From Chloroflexota bacterium (lineage in GTDB: Bacteria > Chloroflexota > Dehalococcoidia > Lucifugimonadales > Lucifugimonadaceae): a stretch of 64,000 bases of DNA. Position numbers and translations under genes: made by a program. Positions within the stretch are counted from its first letter, which is position 1. The number at the start of each line of letters is the position of its first letter. This document shows, in pieces, positions 3,499 to 35,802 of this stretch. Below the pieces are notes generated by a model, which ran no database searches, was not told where the DNA came from, and worked only from the letters and a program-made list of their open reading frames with translations. The stretch spans positions 1 to 64,000 of the forward strand of contig JABHBJ010000086.1 in NCBI GenBank assembly GCA_018673955.1. Reading direction: 5' to 3'.

Positions 3499-4827
3499 CT
3501 AGTTGAGCGATTCGAACCGATTTCTTTCACGATATGTTCGTCGTGTTAGCTGTCGAGCTTTTGCCGCGACGCGCCCTGCTGGTTCTAGGCCCAGTGCGAG
3601 CGGAATCGATATCACCAGCACCACTGCTAGCGTCGTGAATCCCAGTCGGTAGCTGTCAGTTCCGTCATAAATAAAGCCGACGAGAGCGGGCCCGGCTGCA
3701 CCGAATAGGGCGTTAACCGAACTGGTAAGACCTACGATAGAGCCATAGCTAGTTCTGCCAAAGTAATCTCCCAGTATTGAGAGTCTGAGGGGTATTGATG
3801 ATCCAAATCCTAGTCCAAAGAATACGACGAACAGCGGCAATGGCCAAAGACCAAGGTTCACTCCTAATACTTCGGCGTTTATCCCGGCGAGCCCTGCCAC
3901 TCCGACAGTTTGCATAATCATCGCAATAGTGAGCATTTTGCGTTTGTCGAAACGATCGCCGATTACTGCGATACCGGCTCGACCACCGAGATCGCCAATT
4001 GCGACTGCTCCTGCTGCAGCCGCAGCTAACGCGGCGGTCATGCCGTAGTCTAAAAGGGCCGCGAAGTGAAACAGATTGGTTGAACTGACAAGCTGGCCGA
4101 GGCTAGTGACAATTGCGAGTTGCCAGAAGAAACGTAGTTTGATGGCTTGTCGCATTGTGATGGCTTGTTCTCGGATTCCACCGGCGCGGTTTGTTTTGCC
4201 ATTGACTGAGCCGTCATCATCCGTTTCACCATCGGGAAGCATGCCGTAGTCTTCTGGTCGTCTCCGCATGACCAGCGTCGCTGGAAATCCGATTAACCAG
4301 AATCCGATTCCGCACGCCAGCATTACTTCTCGCCAACCGAACGTATCGATTGACGCTACGAGGATCGGAAGGGTGATTCCTCCGATTGCCGAGAACGACA
4401 TTAGCACCGCTAGAGCTCGTGCGCGCTTTCGTATAAACCAGTTGGCGACGGTAGCTACAAATACGATGAATGTCCCGAACGACATTCCGAGGGTGAGCAA
4501 CGCTATGGCGATGTAAAACTGCCAAAGCGATTGCATTTGGCTCATATAGACGAAGCCACCGCCGGTAAGGAGAACACCGAACGCCATCGCCTTGCGTGGT
4601 CCGTACTTGTCGAGAATTACGCCGACAAACGGTGAGATCATGCCGCTTTCGCCACGTTGGAGCGATATGGCCGCCCCGGTTACGCCTCTGCTCCACCCAA
4701 ATGTTTCTAATATTGGCGGGACGAACGCTTGAAATCCGCGCCAGAAGATTACAGATGTGTACCACTGGACTACTCCACCTGCTCCGACGATCCACCATCC
4801 GTAGAATGGTTGTTTGAACGATTTCAT
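3499..4827 (-). CDS. MFS transporter (OFA/monocarboxylate-like)
   Basis: 442 aa, multiple TM segments, 'DKYGPRKAMAFG' MFS loop motif. Confidence 0.85.
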   Translation of the reverse strand: MKSFKQPFYGWWIVGAGGVVQWYTSVIFWRGFQAFVPPILETFGWSRGVTGAAISLQRGESGMISPFVGVILDKYGPRKAMAFGVLLTGGGFVYMSQMQSLWQFYIAIALLTLGMSFGTFIVFVATVANWFIRKRARALAVLMSFSAIGGITLPILVASIDTFGWREVMLACGIGFWLIGFPATLVMRRRPEDYGMLPDGETDDDGSVNGKTNRAGGIREQAITMRQAIKLRFFWQLAIVTSLGQLVSSTNLFHFAALLDYGMTAALAAAAAGAVAIGDLGGRAGIAVIGDRFDKRKMLTIAMIMQTVGVAGLAGINAEVLGVNLGLWPLPLFVVFFGLGFGSSIPLRLSILGDYFGRTSYGSIVGLTSSVNALFGAAGPALVGFIYDGTDSYRLGFTTLAVVLVISIPLALGLEPAGRVAAKARQLTRRTYRERNRFESLN

Positions 4828-31008: not shown

Positions 31009-32013
31009 TTAGCCGTTTGCGATAGTTTGGTCGAGAGCTTCAATGAGTTCAGGCTTTGGCGCAAAGTTTTCGAATCGATGAGTGACGAAGCCGTCTTTTC
31101 CGACGATGAACGTCCATTCCTGAGATGAGAGTCCCCATTCTTTGAGTATTGGCGTGAGCCGGGCTTTGCTGAGGTCGCCTTGAATTTCGTGAGGATTGGC
31201 GTAGAGATCGACGTGGACGAAATCGATTTTATCTCCGTAGTCGTCCTGCAGTTCACTGGCTATTTCTACTTGCGGTCCGCATACAGCGTTTGTGCAGAAT
31301 GCTGGACTGGCAAATACGATCAGTAGTGGACGATCATGTTCGAGTGATTCTGCGATTGAGTGCTGGTATAGATCCTGATCCCTAAGGCTACCAGTAGTGA
31401 GCGTGGCGATATCGCCAGTGCTTGCGACTGTTCGACTTTCACTTGCGGGTGCAGGTTGCCCGACGGTTATTGAGTGGGCTTTTTCGGCGACTGGGAACCG
31501 AACTTCGACGTGAGCACTCGATCCGTCGGCCCGAGGGATTTCTGCGGATACTGACCACAGACCCGGACGGTCGAATTCGAGATCGGTCGTGTGAATTCCG
31601 CGTGTGCCGAGCGGGAATAGGAAGAATCGAGCTAACGCAGAGTTTTCGATTTCAGCGTTGGGTTCAGCGTCATATCCATCGGGGAAGTGACTCGCTGTCA
31701 GCTTTACGATTGGGAACTTGATAAGACCGAAATCGTCGCTCAGCACGACACCGAATCGTTGTATTCCTACTCCTAGGTCAGGAGTCGAGAGTTCGAGATT
31801 GATTTGTTCAGAAATGACTGTCCAGATTGGCGCTAGTTCAGTGAAAGAGGAGAGTTCACTGGATAGCCCTGATTCTTGAGATGATGTTTGCGTGTAATCG
31901 TGGGAGATCACTTCGGGGTTTCCAGACGATCCGTAAGCCGCGATGGCGGCTAACGCTAAACCTGAGAGCACGAGTGTTAACCATCGGAAATGAGATGTGT
32001 TGGATGCTGACAT
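31009..32013 (-). CDS. Membrane-anchored thioredoxin-fold protein
   Basis: N-terminal TM; 'DRPLLIVFASPAFCTNAVCGPQVEIASELQDDYGDKIDFVHVDLY ... WTFIVGKDGFVTHRFE'. Confidence 0.75.
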   Translation of the reverse strand: MSASNTSHFRWLTLVLSGLALAAIAAYGSSGNPEVISHDYTQTSSQESGLSSELSSFTELAPIWTVISEQINLELSTPDLGVGIQRFGVVLSDDFGLIKFPIVKLTASHFPDGYDAEPNAEIENSALARFFLFPLGTRGIHTTDLEFDRPGLWSVSAEIPRADGSSAHVEVRFPVAEKAHSITVGQPAPASESRTVASTGDIATLTTGSLRDQDLYQHSIAESLEHDRPLLIVFASPAFCTNAVCGPQVEIASELQDDYGDKIDFVHVDLYANPHEIQGDLSKARLTPILKEWGLSSQEWTFIVGKDGFVTHRFENFAPKPELIEALDQTIANG

Positions 32014-33233
32014 TAAATCCCACTCTCGTTGGCGCCAAAGGTAAACGCGAATATAGCAAAGTCATCGGAGTCGGAGGCGAGTTTAACTATGTGCTCCCCA
32101 AATCGAGGTGTTTCGAGGAAGGCGTATAAGCGTGGCTCTGTCACTGTGAAGTAGGAGCGGCCGTCTTCACCAAATATCACGTCTATTCCAGCTTCGTCTG
32201 CTTTGAGTGGCCGACCGTCGATTTCAATGTAGACGTCGTATGGCTCGGTTCCAGAGAGAGTAACTACTACGTTGGCGCTTCTACCAACGAACTGGAAGGC
32301 TATGTAATCATCGAGATTGCTGGTGGAGCGGGCGTGAGTGATAGATTCAGGGCCGTTCGTCCATAATCCTTGTAGATACCACTGCTGCGAAGTGTAGTTT
32401 TCGTCGTCAACGTACTCCCGAGTAGAATCCGGCTCGATGTAGTACTGATCCTGACCTGCGTACAGTCCAGACTGTGTGTAATTGCGTTCGTACCCGGCAT
32501 AAAGTTCACGAGTGACTCTATCGGCAACTGGGTCGCGGTCGACTGAGTTGACGTTGCCTATTGGAATATCAGAAACGTCCCATCCTGCTTCAGTTAGTGC
32601 TTCACGAATAGCGTGTTCAGTTTCGACGTAAGAGCCTTCGCCGAAATGCCGATAGGTGAGTTGTCCATCGATACCGATGAGATATTTTGCAGGCCAGTAT
32701 CGGTTGCCGAACGAGCGCCAAGTGTCATATTCGTTGTCAAGTACGACTGGCCAGCCGATTCCCTCGCGTGCGATAGCAGCTTGAACGTTGTCGATTCGCT
32801 CTTCGAATTCGAACTCTGGTGTGTGTACTCCGAGAATAACGAGCCCGTTATCGGCGTACTTTGCGTGCCACTCCTTGAGGAACGGAAGAGTCCGTATGCA
32901 GTTAACACACGTGTAGGTCCAGAAATCGACGAGTACGACTTTGTTATCCGCAGTTTGATCGGCAATTTTCAGCCCTTCGGAATTTAGCCATTCGTTGCCC
33001 CCGTGAACTTCTAGTACACCATCTTGATAAGTTGGCAGCGGGAGGGGGCGGGTCGCCGTGGGAGCCAGTGACAGAGTAGCGGATGGAGTATCTGTGGTAG
33101 TGGTTAACGTGGGGCGAGGGGCAACTTGAGTTGGTGAGTTTGCTGGGTCAAGATTCTCGCCGCAGGCAACTGCCGCCATGGCGATAATTGCAGCGACAGC
33201 TGACCATATGAGGAGGGTTTTGTAGTACTTCAT
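32013..33233 (-). CDS. Thioredoxin/redoxin lipoprotein with DipZ-like C-terminal domain
   Basis: Lipobox AVAC; VDFWTYTCVNCIRTLPFLKEW; C-terminal 'SANVVVTLSGTEPYDVYIEIDGRPL'; stop overlaps the start of 31009-32013 (TAATG). Confidence 0.88.
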   Translation of the reverse strand: MKYYKTLLIWSAVAAIIAMAAVACGENLDPANSPTQVAPRPTLTTTTDTPSATLSLAPTATRPLPLPTYQDGVLEVHGGNEWLNSEGLKIADQTADNKVVLVDFWTYTCVNCIRTLPFLKEWHAKYADNGLVILGVHTPEFEFEERIDNVQAAIAREGIGWPVVLDNEYDTWRSFGNRYWPAKYLIGIDGQLTYRHFGEGSYVETEHAIREALTEAGWDVSDIPIGNVNSVDRDPVADRVTRELYAGYERNYTQSGLYAGQDQYYIEPDSTREYVDDENYTSQQWYLQGLWTNGPESITHARSTSNLDDYIAFQFVGRSANVVVTLSGTEPYDVYIEIDGRPLKADEAGIDVIFGEDGRSYFTVTEPRLYAFLETPRFGEHIVKLASDSDDFAIFAFTFGANESGI

Positions 33234-33460: not shown

Positions 33461-34324
33461 CTATGTGAGGCCTTCGATTGGGCAAGATGGCACTTCAGCC
33501 CATTCTCGCCAAGAGCCGTCGTAATCACGAACTTTGTCGAATCCGACTAGTTTGAGAGTCCAGAATCCGTGCGCCGCACGGATGCCGCCCTGTCAGTATG
33601 TGATGACGTTTTTATCTGGCGTGATTCCGTATTCTGAGAGCAGGTTACGAATTTCATCTGCAGTCTTCAGCACAGGAATGTCGCCTTCTGTCATGAAGTT
33701 CGCCCACTCCAGGTGAACTGCTCCTGGAATGTGCCCGCCGCGTGGGCCTCCGCGTTTGTTGGCACCAGTCCATTCATCATCCGAGCGTACATCGAGGATG
33801 ATCATTGCGCTGTCGTCGATAGAGTCGAGCACGCGCTTTCGTGAGGCGAATATTTCACGGTTAGTTTTCGCTGTAAACGATCCTGATTTCCCTGCTGCAT
33901 TCAGTGGTGTTTTAGTAGTTTCACGACCTTCAGCTACCCATTTTTCTAGTCCGCCGTCGAGGATTTTTACGTTCGTGTGTCCGTAGTAGTGGAGCGCCCA
34001 CATGAGTCGGAACGAGTAGACGCCACCACCACGATTGTATCCAACTACTGTCGTCTCATCGCCGATTCCGAGCCCGGACATTGTTTGTTCGAACTGCTCG
34101 GGGTTCTGAATATGAGTGCGTTCTTCAAGTGAAGTTTTGTAATAGTGATCGACTGGGTTCACTGAGTTCGGTATATGCCCTTGTTCGTACTTTTTGGGTA
34201 CGTCGGTATCGACGAGTCTTACGTTTGGGTCATTGATATGTTCGGCGAGCCAATCTGTTGTGACGAAAATTTCTGGCGTTGTGTATCCGCGATCAGTTGG
34301 TGGGATAATTGGTGGAATGGTCAT
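33461..34324 (-). CDS. Two-domain rhodanese sulfurtransferase with in-frame TGA at the active-site Cys: candidate selenoprotein
   Basis: ...EYGITPDKNVITY[TGA]QGGIRAAHGFWTLKLVGFDKVRDYDGSWREWAEVPSCPIEGLT*; TGA occupies the C of the CxGxxA-type active-site loop; TGA at 33593-33595. Confidence 0.8.
33565..33583 (-). promoter_or_regulatory. Candidate bacterial SECIS hairpin downstream of the in-frame TGA
   Basis: Minus strand: TGA CAGGGCGGC ATCCGTGC-GGC-GCACGGAT; 8-bp perfect stem, loop begins after 17 nt. Confidence 0.65.
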
Positions 34325-34491: not shown

Positions 34492-35802
34492 TTGAATCTA
34501 CCGACTGCGACATTTACGGGTACGACTAATAATTTGGATTTTATACTCGCAGGCCTAAATATCGACCGTGCACCAGTAGAAATACTCGAATGTGTAGCGG
34601 TTCCGACTCACTCCCTCAAGAAACACCTTGAGCGACTAGCGACAGATGCTGGAGGAGGAGTCATTCTTTCTACCTGTAACCGTACTGAGATCTACTCGGT
34701 TGCTGAAGATGTTGAAGTTGGTGTGCGCCAGCTTCGCGAGTACATCGATGCCGTACCTGAACACGCGGGTGTTACTGGCATCAGTGATTATATTTACACG
34801 AAGACTGGTGACGAAGTAGCTGAGCATTTGTTCAGTGTTACGGCTGGTCTTCAATCGGTAGCCCTTGGTGAATCTCAGATTCTTGGTCAGGTTACCCGGG
34901 CGATGCAGGCAGCCGGTGAAGCGGGAACTATCGACCCGGCTCTTTCACGACTTTTCCACGCAGCTCTACGAACTAGCCGGATAATTCATAAGGAAACTGA
35001 TCTCGGTCGTAATCGAACCTCGGTTTCTTCTTTGGGAGTTCAGGAGCTTCAGAACACTCGGGGCGACCTCAAGGGGCTTCGAGTGCTGTTATTAGGTGCT
35101 GGCGAGATGGGCAAGATCACTGCTCGTGCACTGACCCGTTACGGTGCTGACGATATTGTCGTTTCGAGCCGTTCAATGAACCGTGGCAGGATTCTTGCTG
35201 AGGAATTAGGGGCTCCACAGGTTGCATTTGAAGATATTTCAAAGGCGATGATCGAAGCTGATGTTTTGATTACGTGTACAGCTGCAACCGATTCGGTAAT
35301 TACCGCGCATGTTGTTGCAAATGCGATGTCAGCCCGCCCTGAACGAAGGTTAAGCATTCTTGATTTAGGTATGCCGCGTGACGTTGAGTCGTTATCGGGT
35401 GATGTTGCTAACGTGAATCTGATTAGCCTTACCGAGCTTCAGGCGCGATCGGCTGAGAGCTGGGAGCTTCGTGAATCAGCAGCAGCCGAGGCTCAAGGTT
35501 TGATTGACAATGGTGTTCGTCGTTTCAAGGAGCGTTTGACTGGTATCGAGAGCGAGCCAGTTATTCGAACCCTCGGAGCTCGTGTAGAGCAGATGAGACG
35601 TGAGGAAGTCGAGCGGACTCTTGCTCACCTTGATGGTCTCACCGAAATGCAAGCAATATCTGTCGAGAAGATGACTCGTTCGCTTGTACGACGGATTATT
35701 GCCGACCCTATTAGCTTCTTGAGGAGCGAAGAGGAAAGTGCTGCCGATGCCGTTCAGAAGGTATTTGCACTTGTCGAGCAGGTTGAAGATCAACCCGAGT
35801 AA
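34492..35802 (+). CDS. hemA: Glutamyl-tRNA reductase
   Basis: 'GGGVILSTCNRTEIYSV', 'ALGESQILGQVTRAMQAA', 'VLLLGAGEMGKITARAL'. Confidence 0.95.
   Translation: MNLPTATFTGTTNNLDFILAGLNIDRAPVEILECVAVPTHSLKKHLERLATDAGGGVILSTCNRTEIYSVAEDVEVGVRQLREYIDAVPEHAGVTGISDYIYTKTGDEVAEHLFSVTAGLQSVALGESQILGQVTRAMQAAGEAGTIDPALSRLFHAALRTSRIIHKETDLGRNRTSVSSLGVQELQNTRGDLKGLRVLLLGAGEMGKITARALTRYGADDIVVSSRSMNRGRILAEELGAPQVAFEDISKAMIEADVLITCTAATDSVITAHVVANAMSARPERRLSILDLGMPRDVESLSGDVANVNLISLTELQARSAESWELRESAAAEAQGLIDNGVRRFKERLTGIESEPVIRTLGARVEQMRREEVERTLAHLDGLTEMQAISVEKMTRSLVRRIIADPISFLRSEEESAADAVQKVFALVEQVEDQPE

Follow-up and report, generated by a model that had tools for sequence, protein, structure and literature searches.

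A predicted selenocysteine-containing two-domain rhodanese in Dehalococcoidia, a new addition to a family of selenoproteins originally predicted in Sargasso Sea DNA

Does a TGA at the catalytic position of a rhodanese gene end the protein, or is it read as selenocysteine (Sec)? The question is raised by a minus-strand frame in the window, by which we mean the whole stretch of 64,000 nucleotides analyzed here (Table 1). The frame runs from an ATG at 34324 through a single TGA (33595-33593) and 43 clean codons to a TAG, and ORF calling with table 11 ends it at 33593, after 243 aa, which is the truncation that the original prediction expected of automated callers. The read-through protein matches PF00581 with 140 bits in two stretches, as one two-domain rhodanese, and the codons after the TGA are indeed free of lesions, as had been claimed. 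It aligns near end to end with two solved two-domain thiosulfate sulfurtransferases, the Thermus rhodanese 1uar and M. tuberculosis SseA 3hzu. Their counterpart of residue 244 is the Cys in the motifs 'yCRIAERSSH' and 'yCRIGERSSH', which places the in-frame TGA at the catalytic Cys, as first proposed. The catalytic loop lies in the second of the two rhodanese domains; judged from the sequence, the N-terminal domain lacks a Cys at the corresponding position.

Table 1. Features of the locus, with positions in the window
Feature	Positions	Strand	Basis
Predicted Sec-containing two-domain rhodanese, thiosulfate-sulfurtransferase type	33461..34324	-	287 aa by read-through, TAG stop 33463-33461
TGA in frame at codon 244, aligned with the catalytic Cys, predicted to be read as selenocysteine	33593..33595	-	codon counts in homologues
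Putative SECIS hairpin: 8-bp stem AUCCGUGC/GCACGGAU, GGC apical loop	33565..33583	-	fold z, covariation
TlpA/ResA-like thioredoxin with Thioredoxin_10 C-terminal domain, downstream	32013..33233	-	Pfam PF17991, PF08534
Conserved 334-aa protein, CTNAVC motif	31009..32013	-	no significant Pfam match
hemA (glutamyl-tRNA reductase), divergent neighbour	34492..35802	+	TIGR01035

The active loop had been described as C-x-G-x-x-(A/T), and this needs correction. It reads U-Q-G-G-I-R, six residues with Arg last, as in thiosulfate sulfurtransferases of the CRIGER type. Like 1uar and 3hzu, the protein follows this six-residue, Arg-terminated loop with S/A and H, and it differs from them in having Sec where they have Cys. 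Mercaptopyruvate enzymes have an active loop of the CG[ST]GVT type. By homology the protein would be a thiosulfate-type sulfurtransferase, its UQGGIR resembling the CRIGER of 3hzu more closely than CG[ST]GVT. No NCBIfam model claims the read-through protein. The best match, the 3-mercaptopyruvate sulfurtransferase model NF008557 (PRK11493), reaches 136.7 bits over the whole length, below its cut-off of 250, and the active loop here is unlike the CG[ST]GVT type. The rhodanese_LYCAU selenoprotein model NF041203 likewise describes a rhodanese domain with Sec, but it spans 126 positions, its CxU motif (LYCAU) differs, and the score of 30.6 bits does not reach its cut-off of 115.

In a MAFFT alignment of 102 distinct homologues, some of them from outside the class, codon 244 is TGA in 69, TGC in 20 and TGT in 13. 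No other stop (TAA, TAG) and no other sense codon occurs there among the 102, which bears out the expectation that homologues would carry Cys or Sec at this place. A TAA flagged in the homologues of genomes G035 and G019 proved to be the normal terminator of those genes. Within the genus the TGA is kept in 18 of 19 genomes, the window's included, the nineteenth (G012) having only a 33% homologue; one of those that keep it is the closed PacBio genome of Ca. Lucifugimonas marina JH1073 (CP046147.1), a cultured SAR202 strain. Since the TGA is so consistently retained in the genus, and all 102 homologues have either TGA or TGC/TGT, we do not regard it as a product of chance. A sequencing or assembly error hiding a true TGC or TGT might be suspected in a window from a fragmented MAG (2.2 Mb in 103 contigs), but independently assembled genomes show the same TGA, as does the PacBio genome of the cultured strain. 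These independent genomes refute such an error, and its probability is negligible. A nonsense mutation or pseudogene, with the TGA terminating a rhodanese that is truncated or in decay, agrees with the stop that table 11 reads at codon 244, but the same TGA is found across genus, family, order and class, TAA and TAG never take its place, and a pN/pS of 0.13 after the TGA points to purifying selection on the 43 downstream codons. Conservation of the TGA refutes this explanation, which we hold to be extremely improbable.

The original prediction proposed looking for selA, selB, selD and tRNA-Sec in the same genome. All four were found: a tRNA-Sec with anticodon TCA, SelB (326.9 bits against a curated cut-off of 242), SelA (515.9 against 268) and SelD (363 against 125). 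The pattern named in advance as telling against Sec, namely no selB or selC together with TGC or TGT in close relatives, is thus the opposite of what we see, since both selB and selC occur in the genome and the TGA is found in close relatives too. One point against the Sec reading is that in many genus members, including the window's genome, the listed stretch of the SelB match is confined to about positions 2-350 of 581, although the open frames are about 620 aa long. The selD gene (L043:1501-2430; G000:C96:55507-56436) has one in-frame TGA of its own, in the motif ASCAGUAGK, and for this reason SelD is a second likely selenoprotein of the window's genome. Across the window's genome and 59 relatives, SelA and SelB are both present in 38 of the 39 genomes with the TGA form, whereas one or both are missing from 4 of the 9 with the Cys form (Fisher p 0.003, uncorrected for relatedness), and none of the 60 has the TGA form while lacking both. 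The one exception, G056, also counts against Sec, having no SelB over the cut-off; its SelA and tRNA-Sec are present, and it is 91% complete. With strict filters, tRNA-Sec was found in 45 of the 60.

It could also be asked whether TGA is reassigned genome-wide, or whether read-through generally inserts some other residue, for instance Trp or Cys. We found nothing that specifically favours this. Of the long frames with a TGA that were scanned in the window, only this one has a clear family match extending across the TGA (the other frames were judged by eye), the alternative residue at codon 244 is always Cys and never Trp, and a dedicated tRNA-Sec, SelA, SelB and SelD are present, with a SECIS element after codon 244. 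We therefore consider reassignment very unlikely.

The putative SECIS element is a hairpin whose loop starts 17 nt after the UGA (fold z -3.15), and its small apical loop holds a guanosine, the first G of GGC, as in bacterial SECIS elements. Across 34 Sec forms 93.4% of stem cells are paired and three pairs have changed on both sides, giving a covariation score reached by none of 500 shuffles, whereas 15 Cys orthologues have 50.8% of stem cells paired and no covariation. At least six of the seven inner pairs are kept in 66 of 69 Sec forms but in none of the 33 Cys forms. Sec forms hardly vary in the four codons that follow QGG-I (mostly R-A-A-H), whereas Cys forms vary freely there, and over the nine codons directly after the TGA pS drops to 0.25, versus 0.74-0.76 elsewhere (0.76 further on). 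As the amino acids here are largely the same in the Cys orthologues, whose codon choice is free, it is the RNA that is constrained. No Rfam family matches the hairpin. A covariance model of it finds no second convincing copy in the genome, and so reveals no further selenoprotein genes.

Hairpins of another kind occur in two homologues. One, in a Planctomycetota MAG (L104, near 4001-4792), has a TGA at the same codon in the loop YUGSGQRSS, followed by a hairpin with a GGU loop and a bulged U; the fold alone is not significant (z -1.31), and this is possibly an independent Sec sulfurtransferase. The other, a Dehalococcoidia Sec homologue (L166, G067:C52), has a hairpin with other pairing, AAGGUCGUC GGU GAUGUACCUU, which closely resembles the one in L104. 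Together these two hairpins suggest a second SECIS type in the family.

The Sec machinery, the exclusive alternation of TGA and Cys codons, a covarying hairpin confined to the TGA forms and the selection downstream are four independent reasons for reading the TGA as selenocysteine, and they uphold the central claim of the original prediction. The gene almost certainly encodes a two-domain rhodanese of the thiosulfate-sulfurtransferase type, with Sec as the catalytic residue of its C-terminal domain, inserted at UGA by the ordinary bacterial route. Along that route, Sec-tRNA would be made by SelA with selenophosphate from SelD, and SelB, bound to the hairpin that directly follows the UGA, would deliver it. 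By analogy with rhodanese chemistry, the selenolate might then accept sulfane sulfur as a selenosulfide (Se-S), and this sulfur might be passed to a thiol acceptor or to cyanide.

Sec rhodaneses of this kind have been described before, and the original prediction was right to mention marine examples (PMC1088965, PMC2398784). Sargasso Sea data yielded in 2005 a Sec 'rhodanese-related sulfurtransferase' in COG2897, with three sequences and a drawn SECIS element (PMC1088965), and GOS data in 2008 added eight Sec sequences in cd01449 and one in COG2897 (PMC2398784). A 2022 review lists the family as COG2897/SseA with the example MQG53192.1 (PMC9312934), and a 2026 review, citing the 2005 paper, calls it 'rhodanese-like form 4' with the motif UxxG and the example MCY3690685.1 (PMC13188914). 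As described there by class and motif, the published family shares with our gene membership of a two-domain group, Sec in place of the catalytic Cys, the UxxG motif (here UQGG), a bacterial SECIS element after the UGA and a marine origin. The suggestion that the two-domain form might be new does not hold, as COG2897 (2005) and cd01449 (2008) were already two-domain sulfurtransferase groups. Forms 1, 2, 3 and 5 of the 2026 review are likewise rhodanese domains with Sec (PMC13188914). In the sections that deal with the family, these papers know it from a few environmental reads or from individual accessions cited as examples, and give neither host lineage nor locus. Literature on selenocysteine together with SAR202 yielded only incidental mentions, and the Ca. 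Lucifugimonas paper leaves selenium unmentioned. We regard our gene as a well-supported new member of the selenoprotein family first predicted in 2005, of a kind already known.

What the present analysis adds is a host lineage, a class-wide spread and repeated exchange of Sec and Cys. It also provides a locus that is conserved, and in Ca. Lucifugimonas marina a relative in culture, for a family that the cited papers know from environmental sequence. We infer a SAR202-type Dehalococcoidia host because a genome of the same genus is that of the cultured SAR202 strain JH1073. Accessions of the MQG type have presumably been given to SAR202 MAGs. In routine annotation, the catalytic end of the Sec rhodanese is lost across this abundant deep-ocean group.

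The thioredoxin gene lies beside the Sec gene in many, not all, genus members, and the gene for the 334-aa CTNAVC protein travels with it. Both neighbours are absent from beside the Sec gene in several genus members (e.g. L070, L073, L075 and L080), which argues against an obligate thioredoxin partner at the locus. Our guess is that the thioredoxin-like protein is a candidate reductant of the Sec rhodanese. The hemA gene marks the syntenic locus, with no functional link implied. In the sponge SAR202 genomes L088 and L090 a Cys form is found at the corresponding position, next to hemA and the thioredoxin gene, and these Cys forms are therefore orthologues of the Sec gene.

On a quick tree the Sec/Cys label needs 11 changes, 5 of them forced by well-supported branches, compared with a mean of 28 when shuffled, and several Cys clades are nested inside a Sec-rich clade, in a tree whose root is not fixed. 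With the root not fixed, the pattern is consistent with a Sec form that is old and has reverted to Cys several times. One could go further and speculate that SAR202-type Dehalococcoidia have an old, class-wide two-domain Sec sulfurtransferase, repeatedly reverted to Cys, in which Sec serves reactions to which the Cys enzyme is ill suited (such as a selenosulfide relay, or the handling of selenium for SelD), although we think this rather unlikely. The naturally occurring exchanges of Sec and Cys, some of which took place at a single syntenic locus, offer a way to ask why selenium is used. No relative was found among viral contigs. One MAG has two Sec copies (L010 and L045, on G014:C30 and G014:C67), 88% and 76% identical to the window's, reflecting either gene duplication or a bin that mixes two strains. 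A Sec form with a SAR202-type SECIS element also lies on a contig assigned to a Deltaproteobacteria bin (L099), through either misbinning or transfer.
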